A stretch of 42,161 bases of DNA from an uncultured Hyphomicrobiaceae bacterium (GTDB lineage Bacteria; Pseudomonadota; Alphaproteobacteria; Rhizobiales; CAMYJA01): NCBI GenBank assembly GCA_947258705.1, contig CAMYJA010000032.1, forward strand, positions 1-42,161. Direction: 5' to 3'. The translations under genes were made by a program, and so were the position numbers. Below are positions 2,982 to 42,161 of this stretch, piece by piece (the stretch's first letter is position 1; each line of letters starts with the position of its first letter). Under the pieces are notes generated by a model. That model had not been told where the DNA came from and did not search any database. It saw only the letters and a program-made list of their open reading frames with translations.

Positions 2982-2991
2982 GTCATGTTCT

Positions 2992-3100
2992 TTCGCTCAC
3001 GGCTATTCCGTGTCTTCGACACGGGCCTGCGCGGGCACGGCGCAACGCGCCGGGGACCCTTGGTCCCTTGTCGCAGAAAACCGCAATATTTTCTGCTCCT
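2992..3100. repeat. Type 1 modular hairpin repeat, copy 1
   Basis: Four consecutive inverted repeats in a fixed order. Slot 1 CCGTGTC-TTC-GACACGG at 3008-3024. Slot 2 CGGCGC-AAC-GCGCCG at 3038-3052. Slot 3 GGGACC-CTT-GGTCCC at 3053-3067. Slot 4 is a CAGAAAA/TTTTCTG stem at 3074-3095. The same framework (cgctcacggctattcc, gggcctgcgcgggcacgg, cttgtc, gctcctgt) returns near 8213, 8936, 9414, 9533 and 9645 with different stems. No coding potential was seen. Confidence 0.8.
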
Positions 3101-3103
3101 GTT

Positions 3104-3240
3104 GTCGCTCACGTGACGAGAATAACAATTCCGTTTTGCCCATGAAGATGGGCATCCAAGCACGTATTCGGGGGACGTGACATTTGCGGCGTCGCGTACG
3201 CTGATGGTCGCATGGGTTCCCGCCTTCGCGGGAAAGACGA
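3104..3240. repeat. Type 2 intergenic repeat, copy 1
   Basis: Begins CGCTCACGTGACGAG, then AGAATAACAATTCCGT and TTTGCCCATGAAGATGGGC (hairpin GCCCAT-GAAG-ATGGGC, 3138-3153), GGCATCCAAGCA, and ends in a hairpin TTCCCGC-CTTC-GCGGGAA at 3217-3234. The second copy at 9250-9398 shares the framework but has different stems at both hairpins. It directly follows the type 1 element. Confidence 0.75.
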
Positions 3241-8040: not shown

Positions 8041-8096
8041 ATCTTTTTTTGCCTCACGGCCAATTCCGCATTTATTGAGTGACGCCGACTAGGACG
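8041..8096. repeat. Fragment of intergenic repeat (T-run, GCCTCACGG, GTGACGCCGAC)
   Basis: Opens with a run of seven T and GCCTCACGGCCAATTCCGC, and ends GTGACGCCGACTAGGA at 8080-8095. The last part recurs at 33565-33580 with one change. The T-run plus GCCTC opening recurs at 8190, 9085, 9413, 33532 and 42130. Between 8097 and 8184 nothing else was recognised. Confidence 0.55.
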
Positions 8097-8184: not shown

Positions 8185-8345
8185 TCTCTTTTTGCCTCAC
8201 GCTTTGTTTTCGCTCGCGGCTATTCCATGTCTTCGACACGGGCCTGCGCGGGCACGGGCCTAAGGCCCGAGGCGCGCCACTAAGTGGCAGCGCCATTGTT
8301 GACTACTGAGGTTTTGCCCGGCTAATCCGAACTGTTTATGCGGCA
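8185..8345. repeat. Type 1 modular hairpin repeat, copy 2, with nested hairpin
   Basis: Slot 1 CCATGTCTTCGACACGG at 8225-8241 (one stem mismatch relative to other copies). Slot 2 CGGGCC-TAA-GGCCCG at 8255-8269. The next hairpin GGCGC/GCGCC (8271-8275 with 8290-8294) holds an entire second hairpin GCCAC-TAA-GTGGC in its loop (8276-8288). A tail follows, GACTACTGAGGTTTTGCCCGG and onward, shared with copies 3 and 4. Confidence 0.8.
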
Positions 8346-8503
8346 GCGCTGGAGCTGGTTGATGGGCGCGTCATCCTTGGTGCATTCACCGTTTAACGGG
8401 GGCACTTTATTTGACCGCAAACGCATCGGCATGGGTTGCAAAATCACGCGAATATAGATACATACAGGAGCAACAATCCCGAATTTCCGAAAAGGCTGTT
8501 TCA

Positions 8504-8914
8504 ATGGCACGTGTTACCGTCGAAGATTGCGTCGACAAGGTCGCAAACAGGTTCGATCTCGTTTTGCTTGCTGCCCATCGGGCACGCACGATATCGACTG
8601 GATCGCAGATCACCGTCGATCGCGACAATGACAAGAATCCCGTCGTTTCCCTGCGCGAGATTGCAGAGGAAACCATCGCACCCGACGACATCAAGGAAGA
8701 CTTCATTCACTCCATGCAGAAATATGTGGAAGTGGACGAGCCCGAGCCCGAAGCCGCGCCGCAAGTCGTGGCGGATACCGGCGCGGTGCCGGTGATCGGA
8801 CAGGACGATCCTTCAACGGATACAGTCGTCGATCAGATGAGCGAAGAGGAATTGATCCGCGGCATGGAGAACCTCTCCATGTCTGAATCGGGCTCCGCTT
8901 CCCGCCGCCGGTAG
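8504..8914 (+). CDS. rpoZ: RNA polymerase omega subunit
   Basis: 136 residues from the ATG at 8504. An in-frame extension upstream does not match the family, whose members start MARVTVEDC. The conserved core is [20 protein letters not shown], then AAHRARTIS, and [12 protein letters not shown] (residues 1-65). Omega helps assemble RNA polymerase and forms part of one ppGpp-binding site in proteobacteria. The acidic Pro/Glu-rich C-terminal tail (about 75-136) is usual for alphaproteobacteria. The ppGpp enzyme gene rsh is next, but almost 1 kb of repeats separates them. Confidence 0.95.
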
Positions 8915-9060
8915 TTTTTTCACTCAGGTTTTTTTCGCTTACGGCTATTCCGTGTCTTCGACACGGGCCTGCGCGGGCACGGCGCAACGCGCCGGTATTT
9001 ACTACTGAGGTTTGGTTCGGCTCAACCGATATGCTTATGCGGTGATGTCGGTGATGGCTG
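8915..9060. repeat. Type 1 modular hairpin repeat, copy 3
   Basis: Starts directly after the rpoZ stop codon with TTTTTT and a second T-run. Slot 1 CCGTGTC-TTC-GACACGG at 8950-8966 and slot 2 GGCGC-AAC-GCGCC at 8981-8993 match copy 1. It then jumps to the ACTACTGAGGTTT tail found in copies 2 and 4 instead of slots 3 and 4, so head and tail modules are combined independently. Confidence 0.8.
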
Positions 9061-9081
9061 AGGGGCGAGAGTGCCGAGGGA

Positions 9082-9245
9082 TTTGTTTTGCCTCACGTGC
9101 TGCTCGCCGTTTCACGGCGGCACTCCGGCGGGGCGGGCCTAAGGCCCGAGGCGCTAGCGCCATTGTTGACTACTGAGGTTTTTGCCCGGCTGAACCGTTT
9201 TATTACTGCGGCACGGTTGGTGCCGGTTGCGAGGCGAGATGGCTG
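9082..9245. repeat. Type 1 modular hairpin repeat, copy 4, without nested hairpin
   Basis: GTTTTGCCTCACG opening, a reduced slot 1 (CCGT-TTC-ACGG, 9107-9117), slot 2 CGGGCC-TAA-GGCCCG at 9134-9148, then GGCGC-TA-GCGCC at 9150-9161. Copy 2 is the same here on both flanks but has a 14-nt hairpin segment in place of TA. The GACTACTGAGGTTTTTGCCCG tail follows. Confidence 0.8.
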
Positions 9246-9249
9246 AGGG

Positions 9250-9405
9250 GTTTTTTCTCGCCACGTGGCGAGAATAACAATTCCGTCTTGCCCATGTAGG
9301 GAACTCGTTCCTGGGCATCCAAGCAAGTTTTTTGGGCACTCCAGATTTGCAGCGTCACGCAAACCGAGGGTTGTCTGGGTCCCGGCCTTCGCCGGGTGTG
9401 TGTCG
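9250..9405. repeat. Type 2 intergenic repeat, copy 2
   Basis: Same framework as 3104-3240 (CACGTGGCGAGAATAACAAT, TTGCCCATG, TGGGCATCCAAGCA, CCTTCGC). The first hairpin loop here contains an additional palindrome GGAAC-TCG-TTCC between GCCCA and TGGGC (9290-9316). The final hairpin is CCCGGC-CTTC-GCCGGG instead of TTCCCGC-CTTC-GCGGGAA. Confidence 0.75.
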
Positions 9406-9408
9406 GGT

Positions 9409-9700
9409 TCTGTTTTGCCTCACGGCCATATCCGCGCCCAAGGCGCGGGGCCTCCTCGGGGGCGGCCCAACGCGCCGGGAACCCTTAGTCCCTTGTCACA
9501 GAAAATACAGCTATTTTCTGTTCCTGTATTCGCTCACGGCCATATCCGCGCCCAAGGCGCGGGGCCTCCGCGGGGGCGGCACTAAGTGCCGGGACCCTTG
9601 GTCCCTTGTCACAGAAAATAGCTATATTTTCTGTTCCTGTATTCGCTCGCGGCCATTCCGTGTCTTCGACACGGGCCTGCGCGGGGGCGGCGCATTTTCT
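9409..9700. repeat. Three tandem type 1 modular hairpin units
   Basis: Unit a (9414-9525): slot 1 CCGCGCC-CAA-GGCGCGG at 9432-9448, imperfect slots 2 and 3, slot 4 CAGAAAATA/TATTTTCTG at 9499-9520. Unit b (9526-9638): the same slot 1 at 9546-9562, slot 2 CGGCAC-TAA-GTGCCG at 9577-9591, slot 3 GGGACC-CTT-GGTCCC at 9591-9605, slot 4 at 9612-9633 with a different 4-nt loop. Unit c (9639-9700): slot 1 CCGTGTC-TTC-GACACGG at 9658-9674, then truncated. The framework around the slots is nearly the same in all three. Confidence 0.8.
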
Positions 9701-9702
9701 GC

Positions 9703-9781
9703 GATCAGCTTATCCGTGCTCGCCAGACACTAGGTGTCGGACACTCGGTGTCGGCTCCCACACTAAGTGTGCGGGCTGATC
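9703..9781. repeat. Cloverleaf-like nest of three mini-hairpins before rsh
   Basis: An outer 7-bp inverted repeat GATCAGC (9703-9709) and GCTGATC (9775-9781) encloses three perfect hairpins with 5-bp stems and 3-nt loops: GACAC-TAG-GTGTC (9726-9738), GACAC-TCG-GTGTC (9740-9752) and CACAC-TAA-GTGTG (9759-9771). It resembles a tRNA outline in size but has no anticodon or T loop, so it is not a tRNA. It would lie in the rsh leader if transcription starts upstream. Confidence 0.7.
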
Positions 9782-9890
9782 TTGAGTGCCGAAAATGACA
9801 GCTGAGGTTGGCGTACGAGGTTTACCTCAATATGGTTATCATGATTATTTGAACTTCTCTTTACTGCCGCGCATGGCGTATAAACAGGCA

Positions 9891-12152
9891 ATGACGGATA
9901 TCCTTGAACATAATCTGGTCGAGAAAGTCCTGGGCTATGATCCCAAGGCGGACGGGACGCTGCTGGAGCGGGCCTTTGACTACGCCTCCGACGCGCATCG
10001 CCATCAAACACGCAAATCGGGCGATCCCTACATATCCCATCCGCTGGCAGTGGCGGAAATCCTTATCGATCTCAAGCTCGACGACGCGACGATCGCGGCG
10101 GCGCTTCTGCACGACACCATCGAGGATACCGATGCCACGGTCGATGACATCAGAGAGCTTTTCGGCGAGGAAATCTGCGTTCTCGTCGAAGGGCTGACGA
10201 AAATCGACAAGCTCGATCTGGTCACCAAAAAGGCCGAGCAGGCCGAAAATTTCCGCAAGCTCCTATTGGCGATTTCATCGGACATCAGGGTGTTGCTGGT
10301 GAAATTCGCCGACCGGCTGCACAATATGCGCACCCTCGAGCATATGAAACCGGGAAGCCGCGAGCGGATCGCCCGCGAAACCCTCGACATTTACGGGCCG
10401 CTGGCGGGGCGCATGGGTATTCAATGGATGCGCGAGGAACTCGAGGAACTCGCCTTCAAATGGCTTTATCCGGAACAGCACGCGGCCGTTCTCGCAAAAC
10501 TCGAGGAAATGAAGGACGAAAATCAAAGCCTGATCGAGGAGATCAAGTCGGCCATTCAGGCGCGGCTGGACGATTCCTCCTTCGATGGCGTGGTTAGCGG
10601 GCGGGAAAAGAAACCCTATTCGATCTGGCGCAAGATGGAACACCATCAGATTTCGCTGGAAAAACTGTCGGATATTTTTGGATTTCGCGTGATCACCCAG
10701 AGCGTGGAAGATTGCTACAGGGCGCTGGGGATTGCGCACACAAGCTGGCGCGCGGTGCCGGGGCGGATGAAAGATTACATTTCGACGCCGAAGCAGAATG
10801 GCTATCAGTCGATCCATACGACCGTTGTCGGACCGGGCAATCACCGGGTGGAAATGCAGATCCGCACCGATAAAATGCACCAGATCGCCGAGCACGGGGT
10901 TGCGGCTCATGCGCTTTACAAGGACAGCGTGGAGATCGAGGCGGGCGGGGAGAACGAAGGCGGACCGAGCAATCCATATCTCTGGCTGCGCCATCTGGTG
11001 GATACGTTGCTCGAGGGCGATAATCCGGAAGAGTTTCTCGAGAATACGAAACTCGAACTCTTTCACGACCAGGTTTTCTGCTTTACGCCCAAGGGGCTGC
11101 TGATCGCATTGCCGCAGGGCGCGACGCCCATCGATTTCGCCTATGCGGTGCATACGGATATCGGCAATTCATGCGTCGGCGCCAAGATCAATGGACGGCA
11201 TGTGCCGCTTGTCACGAAGCTCGCCAATGGCGACGAGGTTCAGATTATCAGGTCGGACGCGCAAAAGCCGCCGGCGGTGTGGGAGAAGCTGGTGATTACG
11301 GGCAAGGCGCGGTCGGCCATACGCCGGGCGACGCGGAAGGCGGTGAGAACGCAGTTCAGCGAGCTCGGGCGGCAGCTCGTGGAGACCGCCGCGAAAGCCG
11401 CCAAGAAGGAGTATGACGACCGATTGCTGGAAAAATCTCTGCACCGCCTGTCGCAGGCGACGGTGATCGATGCCCTGGCCGCCGTCGGGCGGCGGGAGCT
11501 GCGCGCGTCGGACATTCTCCGCGCCATATTTCCAAAAGACGCATTGCCGGAGCAGAAACAGGCGGCGCGCACACAACGCAACCGGCTTGAGATTGCGGGC
11601 GCTGCCGGGCAATCGGAGGAAGGCTGGTTCAATCTCTCGAAGGTGATCGGTTTCAAGTTTCGCATACCGCGCGGGCAGAACGCAGACCCAGGAGGGGCTC
11701 TGGCAGGCATACCGGTGCGCGGTCTCAAGGGCGACATTCCGGTTGAGTTCGCCGAGGGCGGGGCGATACCGGGCGACCGCATTGTCGGTATCCTGACGGA
11801 CGGCAAAGGCGTGCGGATCTATCCCATCCATTCCCCAAAACTGGCGGAATTCGACGAGCAGCTCGACAGGTGGGTCGATGTGACCTGGGATATCGACGAG
11901 CGCATTCCCGAACGCTATCCGGTCGAGATTGCGGTTACGGCTCTCAACGAGCCGGGAAGCCTCGCGGGGATCGCCCAGCTGATTGGCGACGAGGAAGGAA
12001 ATATCGACAATATTTCGATGGTCGATCGGGCCGCGGATTTCACCATCATGCATATCATGCTCGAGGTCTGGGACACGGACCATCTCAACCGCATCATCAC
12101 CGGCCTGAAAGGGCAGAAAAGCGTCAATCTGGTCGAGCGAATTTACAGCTGA
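9891..12152 (+). CDS. rsh: Bifunctional (p)ppGpp synthetase/hydrolase
   Basis: 753 residues from the ATG at 9891, which aligns with the usual N-terminus (a short lead into LVEKVLGYDPKAD). In-frame starts at 9786 (GTG), 9795 and 9873 would add 6-35 residues with no family match. Order: HD hydrolase domain (about 20-180, with HQTRKSGDPYISHP, LLHDTIEDT and FADRLHNMRTL), RelA/SpoT synthetase domain (about 230-350, with KQNGYQSIHTTV), TGS domain (about 393-450, FTPKGLLIALPQGATPIDFA), and a C-terminal ACT domain (about 677-753, LNEPGSLAGIAQLI). Intact HD motifs indicate both making and degrading ppGpp, the usual single-enzyme arrangement in alphaproteobacteria. Cytoplasmic. The leader is repeat-rich. 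Confidence 0.96.
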   Translation: MTDILEHNLVEKVLGYDPKADGTLLERAFDYASDAHRHQTRKSGDPYISHPLAVAEILIDLKLDDATIAAALLHDTIEDTDATVDDIRELFGEEICVLVEGLTKIDKLDLVTKKAEQAENFRKLLLAISSDIRVLLVKFADRLHNMRTLEHMKPGSRERIARETLDIYGPLAGRMGIQWMREELEELAFKWLYPEQHAAVLAKLEEMKDENQSLIEEIKSAIQARLDDSSFDGVVSGREKKPYSIWRKMEHHQISLEKLSDIFGFRVITQSVEDCYRALGIAHTSWRAVPGRMKDYISTPKQNGYQSIHTTVVGPGNHRVEMQIRTDKMHQIAEHGVAAHALYKDSVEIEAGGENEGGPSNPYLWLRHLVDTLLEGDNPEEFLENTKLELFHDQVFCFTPKGLLIALPQGATPIDFAYAVHTDIGNSCVGAKINGRHVPLVTKLANGDEVQIIRSDAQKPPAVWEKLVITGKARSAIRRATRKAVRTQFSELGRQLVETAAKAAKKEYDDRLLEKSLHRLSQATVIDALAAVGRRELRASDILRAIFPKDALPEQKQAARTQRNRLEIAGAAGQSEEGWFNLSKVIGFKFRIPRGQNADPGGALAGIPVRGLKGDIPVEFAEGGAIPGDRIVGILTDGKGVRIYPIHSPKLAEFDEQLDRWVDVTWDIDERIPERYPVEIAVTALNEPGSLAGIAQLIGDEEGNIDNISMVDRAADFTIMHIMLEVWDTDHLNRIITGLKGQKSVNLVERIYS

Positions 12153-42100: not shown

Positions 42101-42161
42101 TCTGTTTTTTTTCGCTCACGGGTGTTTGTTTTGCCTCGGGCTCTGTTTACCGCTCACGGCT
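42101..42161. repeat. Start of another type 1 repeat at the right edge
   Basis: Four bases after the hppA stop there is a run of eight T, then CGCTCACGGGTG, TTTGTTTTGCCTCGGGCTC and CGCTCACGGCT, the same opening words as the copies near 2992, 8190 and 9413. The element continues beyond the window. Confidence 0.6.

Follow-up and report, generated by a model that had tools for sequence, protein, structure and literature searches.

The repeat family reported here was found in a contig of 42,161 nt (CAMYJA010000032.1, assembly GCA_947258705.1; the whole contig is referred to as the window) from an uncultured Hyphomicrobiaceae bacterium. The REP, REPIN and BIME sequences associated with RAYT are short, extragenic, high-copy, hairpin-bearing units that form mosaic clusters (PMC3116915, PMC2817692, PMC8266576), and the spacers of REPINs show compensatory changes (PMC3116915). 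Elements of the IS200/IS605 type carry hairpins in the transposed strand and their orientation follows the direction of replication (PMC5371812). The CcrM-associated CIR repeats of Caulobacter and Brucella are intergenic sequences of ∼110 bp with two hairpin arms and a conserved GANTC (PMC2229807). Br-REP1 and Br-REP2 of Bradyrhizobium are located in 3′ untranslated regions and turn over rapidly in related alphaproteobacteria, with Br-REP1 consisting of three adjacent palindromes (PMC5082802), and RIME are Rhizobium-specific intergenic mosaic elements (PMC1273637). How small palindromic repeats disperse has yet to be settled. The RAYT model requires a Y1 enzyme, and in alphaproteobacteria such enzymes are reported to be absent or few in number (PMC6006769).

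The present element is, like REP and REPIN, an extragenic, high-copy palindromic unit that is short and occurs in mosaic clusters, but it lacks a GTAG head and a Y1 match in this genome and has several variable hairpin slots and a paired linker; whereas REP/REPIN pairs are inverted, the 59 units scored in this genome share one orientation within each contig. Its orientation follows replication, as judged from composition skew in four genomes, in the manner of IS200/IS605 (IS608), and the guide-to-site pairing of those elements may have a parallel in its covarying triplet. It differs from them in the absence of a tnpA match in this genome, in the several hairpins per unit and in stem sequences that are not fixed. 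CIR repeats are similar in size (∼110 bp), intergenic location, hairpins and alphaproteobacterial host, but they keep GANTC, and the scarcity of this site in the element speaks against CIR membership. GANTC is present in the first 120 nt of 8 of the 267 units analysed, whereas a simple shuffle leaves it in 93 of 267, which would fit avoidance of a cell-cycle methylation site. The Br-REP sequences have another consensus, and neither a covarying framework nor replication polarity is among the features given in the passages cited. Membership of an Rfam family was not supported, with no gathering matches in the window (the segment 8180–9790 gave four below-gathering matches to unrelated families, E 1.3–3.6), a plasmid- or phage-borne repeat was disfavoured, 8920–9785 having no blastn match at an E value of 1e-5, and no description of the family was found in the open-licence PMC literature. 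We file the element as a new REP-like family outside REP/RAYT and set apart from the families compared, namely Rfam, CIR and Br-REP. An earlier model reading of the window (the original prediction) had recognized no named family; none was matched, although the kind is familiar, the design resembling REP/REPIN, CIR and Br-REP.

A repeat family with covarying stems

A covariance-model search located seven units of one repeat in the window, all on the + strand, with starts at 2986, 8203, 8928, 9082, 9409, 9523 and 9636, at the sites where copies with a shared framework had originally been noted. A unit consists of a T-run, NNC, TCACGGC, four nucleotides, hairpin slot 1, GGCC or GCAC, a linker T-N1-C-GNN-GG..N2 and hairpin slots 2, 3 and 4. 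The modelled core is ∼72 nt long and the element measures 110–120 nt when slots 3 and 4 are included. The model (R1) was derived from an alignment of 18 units of this genome and was given base pairs in only two places, slot 2 and the outer slot-1 stem; since it contains no pairs at the linker, the triplet or the inner part of slot 1, its hits were not picked for those pairings.

The stem letters vary while pairing is retained. Slot 1 forms a perfect stem of 6 bp or longer in 145 of the 206 units in which this region was parsable (61 of 267 being left out), with 39 different loop-proximal arms, compared with 7/206 for shuffled regions. Positions N1 and N2 of the linker are complementary in 197 of 205 parsable units (62 of 267 left out), as C–G in 142, G–C in 40 and A–T in 15, and when N2 was shifted one base further on 144/207 were complementary. 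The NNC triplet that precedes TCACG is complementary to the GNN of the linker in 166 of the 211 units in which both were parsable (56 of 267 left out), with 11 triplet pairs, whereas the shuffle maximum was 64 overall and 111 within genome groups. The triplet helix and the N1/N2 helix cross, which implies either two alternative states or a small pseudoknot that the framework may possibly carry.

In the 18-unit alignment of this genome 98.9% of cells are paired, compared with 79.6% after shuffling (0/500 as high) and 29–49% with the partners slid. The pair-count and pair-type measures did not rise above shuffles in this alignment (487/500 and 385/500) and mostly exceeded them in larger alignments, with one exception (31/500). 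Three alignments of slot 2 and the outer stem, which are fitted to the pairs of R1 itself, have 97.0–98.4% of cells paired versus 77–87% shuffled and 28–56% slid. Although the shuffle controls do not preserve phylogeny, we judge the covariation to exceed what phylogeny would leave, as the slide controls, the 11 triplet pairs across many genomes and the comparison of orthologous copies agree. Genome-wide, the copies do not have one stem per slot. The suggestion that structure and not sequence is kept therefore holds in part, since slots 1 and 2, the linker and the possible pseudoknot all show compensatory changes; the original prediction had overlooked the paired framework as well as the polarity described below. 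Folding of five of the seven window units as single-stranded DNA gave z scores of −5.0, −5.0, −1.5, −3.1 and −3.2, the value of −1.5 belonging to the unit at 9082, for which 11/200 shuffles folded equally well.

This genome has 60 R1 matches at E up to 1 and 57 at E up to 0.01, a lower bound because 150 of 1923 candidates were scored. The comparison genomes contain no other member of its genus or family. A match at E up to 0.01 was found in 99 of 297 genomes of the order including this one (98 of 296 others), so that a wider presence in related genomes, left as a check by the original prediction, is confirmed; 47 of the 99 have at least five matches and many have a single one. Six genomes of one other genus (g33) have from at least 26 to at least 142 matches each, 150 candidates having been scored in every genome. 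In the class sample, 22 of 385 genomes match at E up to 0.001 including this one (21 of 384 others). When the class-level loci were checked with a simple pattern, a recognizable unit was present in 8 of 19, nothing in ten and other sequence in one, and the class-wide spread thus rests mainly on model E values. In the phylum sample 12 of 299 genomes match, just one of them outside the class (E 7e-4).

Orientation, hairpin exchange and placement

Composition skew marks the leading and lagging strands, which are read here from the skew and not from a mapped origin or terminus. Orientation was found to be almost uniform within each contig and, in four genomes from two genera, to go with composition skew. 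With contigs as the units of the test and the elements masked, it agrees with the summed GC and TA skew for 59/59 units (16/16 contigs) in this genome (G000), and for 63/64 (10/10) and 38/39 (19/19) in the g33 genomes G074 and G191, respectively. In G109, also of g33, skew was sampled in 20 stretches and 38 of the 39 units on three contigs agree with it, the units on contigs C4–C6 (4 of 43) having no skew sample. This agreement means that the top strand has leading-strand composition, i.e. that it is the lagging-strand template. Among single loci of other genomes that contain two or more units, 14 of 15 are uniform in orientation. Gene direction agrees with orientation in only 28/59 (this genome), 7/64 (G074) and 12/39 (G191) units, which speaks against gene direction as the determinant.

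The polarity of other sequences was measured in the same genomes. Two control words, ATGGCGAA and GCTCACGA, lie on the skew strand in 17/32 and 2/4 cases. The median polarity of common 8-mers is 0.59 in G000 and 0.65 in G074, and a polarity of 0.95 is reached by 1/2223 and 9/2160 of them, respectively, several of which are words of the repeats described here. The most polar of the 2223 common 8-mers of G000 is GCGCTGGG, whose 32 occurrences in the stretches of this genome (the window and L119–L147) are all on the skew strand and which might be a segregation or repair motif. A second small repeat of g33 (CTTCAGTTGCCCACTAGCAACCG / CTTCAGATGCCCACTACGCATCCG), in which the stem varies in pairs, is located inside hairpin loops of the element, for example at L276:7119–7331 and L266:5528–5631 (locus:position), and in 111 of 114 cases its orientation follows the skew. 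Another module (CACGTGGCGAGAATAACAATTCCG...CCCATG...GGGCATCCAAGCA...CCCGCCTTCGCGGG) is found 3′ of element units, at 3102–3232 and 9252–9395 in the window, and the six motif copies found (6/6) share the skew orientation.

Whole hairpins are exchanged at orthologous sites between sister genomes. Among 31 units of this genome, the four main alleles of slot 1 and the three main alleles of slot 2 are found in 11 of their 12 possible combinations. The g33 genomes G074 and G191, which have ∼80% DNA identity, were compared by eye at ten orthologous sites with a unit in both; four sites share the slot-1 stem, four have different stems there, and at the remaining two slot 1 is broken up by the second small repeat in one genome. 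At L248:6347/L276:2750 slots 2 and 3 and the adjoining framework are identical while slots 1 and 4 contain unrelated stems, at L246:10594/L265:9542 every slot differs and at L245:8730/L266:11689 the stems of slots 1–3 are kept and slot 4 is different. Slots 1 and 2 are unchanged at L249:9816/L280:5008, and at L248:9874/L276:7262, in addition to a difference in slot 1, a hairpin loop contains an insertion of the second repeat. Three sites have a unit in one sister genome only (L249:16052, L278:9952 and L280:3673). The proposed exchange of palindromic cassettes is borne out in part by the free combination of slot alleles and by these whole-hairpin differences. Separately, slot 1 at L139:4164–4289 (contig C5 of G000) contains a run of mini-palindromes (CACTCAGTG, CACTCGGTG twice and CGGCTTAGCGG), as if hairpins insert into hairpins.

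The arrays are intergenic. Using a simple custom gene caller, and with arrays at stretch ends dropped (6, 6 and 1), overlap with called genes was observed for 1/36 arrays in this genome, 0/58 in G074 and 1/34 in G191, both cases being weak matches (E 0.052 and 0.016). For units preceded by a gene of the same strand, the distance from its stop codon to the start of the modelled unit is at most 25 nt in 10/18, 16/25 and 11/15 cases, respectively; for those whose upstream neighbour is transcribed in the other direction, the called start of that gene is no more than 25 nt from the unit in 1/11, 8/27 and 6/17. Closeness to genes is thus not limited to stop codons. In g33 (L245–L284) the stop codon just 5′ of the element is TAG in 15/27 cases versus 116/516 elsewhere; this genome has no such excess (2/10 versus 69/264).

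Possible modes of spread

The polarity, the conservation of shape without sequence, the intergenic spread and the exchange of whole hairpins fit a non-autonomous single-stranded DNA element at the replication fork. We tentatively favour, at slightly less than even chances, non-autonomous REP-like repeats that spread as folded single-stranded DNA at the fork with their hairpins moving as cassettes; the single-stranded intermediate, the coupling to the fork, the mechanism of exchange and the existence of a mobilizer are what we infer. The framework (T-run, TCACGGC and TCC–GG linker) would hold sequence information and the hairpin stems would be maintained as pairs only. The top strand, in the lagging-strand template, would be recognized as folded single-stranded DNA, and copies would enter intergenic DNA one way round relative to the fork, often near stop codons. 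Their movement would probably be in trans and coupled to replication, by a single-strand mechanism resembling that of IS200/IS605 but with no detectable Y1 transposase here, and hairpins could then pass between copies by template switching or gene conversion via the conserved linkers. A narrower version, to which we would give rather less credence, is that of selfish elements read by shape, whose single-stranded folds (a hairpin chain plus pseudoknot) would be copied into the lagging-strand template by non-Y1 machinery, with cassettes exchanged during replication. A repeat matched in about a third of the sampled genomes of the order, conserved in shape but not in sequence and almost entirely aligned with composition skew in four genomes, provides a natural test of single-strand mobility coupled to replication and of hairpin exchange by template switching.

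Several observations weigh against the favoured reading. GC skew alone, the first measure tried, agrees with orientation for 58/59 units here but only for 41/64 in G074 and 26/39 in G191; the TA and summed skews were chosen post hoc, after this result, and TA skew carries the orientation signal in g33 but agrees for only 36/59 units in this genome. For 29 genomes with one locus, on a 3-kb scale, the agreement was 15 of 29 with GC skew, 14 with TA skew and 17 with the sum. In G255 the units are mixed in orientation within one contig (C2, 502190–506643); this genome has five Y1_Tnp matches, and its units are possibly a REPIN-like variant. No mobilizer was found. The three empty sites, whose flanks have diverged, show no clean target-site signature, and neither terminal inverted repeats nor a target-site duplication were noticed there by eye, no systematic search having been made. 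The argument from the lack of a G–U excess, presented below, depends on omitting the fourth outer-stem pair. Finally, template switching at quasipalindromes could keep the stems paired even if their shape were never recognized.

The main rival explanation invokes template switching alone, with no transposase: hairpins stall the polymerase, the nascent strand switches to another copy via the linkers and the shared direction of the fork keeps the polarity. Template switching makes the arms of inverted repeats alike (PMC8604942, PMC7202029), and the exchange of whole hairpins between conserved linkers, the free assortment of slot alleles, the absence of a Y1_Tnp match in this genome and the equal polarity of a second repeat of different sequence inside the hairpin loops are all as it would predict. 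By itself, however, it leaves the dispersal to many new sites and the common location directly 3′ of stop codons unexplained, as well as the covarying triplet and linker pair conserved across genomes, and we regard it as improbable, though a serious contender.

A structured RNA (a 3′ untranslated region stabilizer, a terminator or a small RNA), with selection acting on the fold of the transcript, would also account for the compensatory changes, the possible pseudoknot and the many copies near stop codons. RNA helices accept G–U much more readily than A–C. Internal mismatches in the element stems number 18 G–T and 18 A–C (summed per-group counts) and those in the triplet helix 12 and 20, giving 30 G–T and 38 A–C in total, whereas the acceptor and T stems of 23 tRNAs from the fetched loci have 17 G–T and no A–C (Fisher p 1e-5). 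Slot 2 alone, with 40 of 267 units left out as not parsable, has 26 A–C and 8 G–T, a count kept out of the 30:38 because it overlaps that of the stems. Pair four of the outer stem as modelled departs from this pattern, and in favour of RNA if the pair is real, with T–G in 73 cells and A–C in two, compared with 21 G–T and 18 A–C in all other modelled cells. We take it to be a register artefact because, in the six rows of this type inspected, that G already has a partner within the inner stem. With this pair left out the counts suggest no G–U excess in the stems, which, with the same reservation, speaks for pairing maintained at the DNA level or on both strands and weakens selection on RNA only; as the argument omits one pair, the odds of an RNA are raised slightly and those of the favoured reading lowered slightly. 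The orientation independent of gene direction and the lack of a gathering Rfam match in the window also stand against an RNA, which we consider quite unlikely. If the covariation is kept at the DNA level, the repeat may serve as a caution in structured-RNA discovery.

KOPS, AIMS and Chi are polar chromosome marks, and the units could be marks of this type for chromosome segregation or repair, their orientation being held by selection. Near-complete polarity with the skew and a G-rich conserved linker would suit such a role, but a second repeat of other sequence is as polar, some sites have a unit in one of two sister genomes only and 198 of the 297 order genomes have no match at E up to 0.01, so that we rate this explanation as very unlikely.

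The association with RAYT-type transposases that was raised at the outset is not supported: PF01797 (Y1_Tnp) has no match at E up to 0.001 in this genome (a control search was positive in 5 of 14 named genomes), and among the sampled genomes of the order a match is present in 21 of the 99 with the element and 25 of the 198 without it (Fisher p 0.06; overlap counted by hand). Ordinary REP/REPIN units mobilized by RAYT (TnpAREP) are therefore the least credible explanation, for although the high copy number, extragenic location, hairpins and Y1_Tnp matches in those 21 genomes agree with it, as do the compensatory changes reported for REPIN spacers (PMC3116915), PF01797 has no match in this genome or in 78 of the 99 overall, GTAG or GTGG is present in the first 16 nt of 0/267 units and the arrangement in this genome is direct and not inverted.

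Units and neighbouring features in the window

Six of the seven window units cluster around an omega-like RNA polymerase gene (rpoZ-like; 8504–8914, PF01192) and a RelA/SpoT gene (9786–12152), the protein product of which has its best relatives, at up to 64% identity, in metagenome-assembled genomes of Hyphomicrobiales, which makes the host a probable member of that order. Slot 1 is variable among the units, with GTGTC, GCGCC and CGCCGT stems. Of the perfect slot-2 hairpins originally described, CGGCGC-AAC-GCGCCG is present in the units at 2986 and 8928, CGGGCC-TAA-GGCCCG in those at 8203 and 9082 and CGGCAC-TAA-GTGCCG in that at 9523; the description does not extend to the unit at 9409, in which one pair is broken (CGGCCC-AAC-GCGCCG), or to that at 9636, in which the slot-2 hairpin is gone (GGCGCATTTTCTGCG). 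The features that follow are all on the + strand.

The first unit (2986–3105; core 2986–3056, E 2.6e-16) contains GTGTC-TTC-GACAC in slot 1, GGGACC-CTT-GGTCCC in slot 3 and GCAGAAAA..TTTTCTGC in slot 4. The unit 5′ of the rpoZ-like gene (8203–8310; core 8203–8273, E 2.7e-16) continues after slot 2 with a hairpin module GGCGCGCCACTAAGTGGCAGCGCC. Near the stop codon of this gene is the unit at 8928–8998 (E 1.1e-15), followed by one at 9082–9180 (core 9082–9152, E 9.1e-20) with the outer stem GTGC/GCAC and CGCCGT-TTC-ACGGCG in slot 1.

The three remaining units are in tandem. The first (9409–9522; core 9409–9481, E 2.7e-19) and the second (9523–9635; core 9523–9595, E 1e-20) both contain GCGCC-CAA-GGCGC in slot 1, and the second, with a fold z score of −5.0, has GGACC-CTT-GGTCC in slot 3 and ACAGAAAATA..TATTTTCTGT in slot 4. 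Its linker mini-hairpin (9568–9575) has C9568 as N1 and G9575 as N2, and the GCG triplet in the loop (9570–9572) is complementary to CGC at 9531–9533, the 5′ triplet of the possible pseudoknot. The third unit (9636–9705, E 2.4e-9) is truncated, with GTGTC-TTC-GACAC in slot 1. A degenerate unit at 8043–8095 is a weak eighth match to the covariance model (E 0.012), and element-like framework repeats with no match to the model are located at the window end (42111–42161), 3′ of an H+-pyrophosphatase gene. The sequence 3′ of the third tandem unit (9706–9781) consists of a run of small hairpins, GACACTAGGTGTC, GGACACTCGGTGTC and CACACTAAGTGTG.

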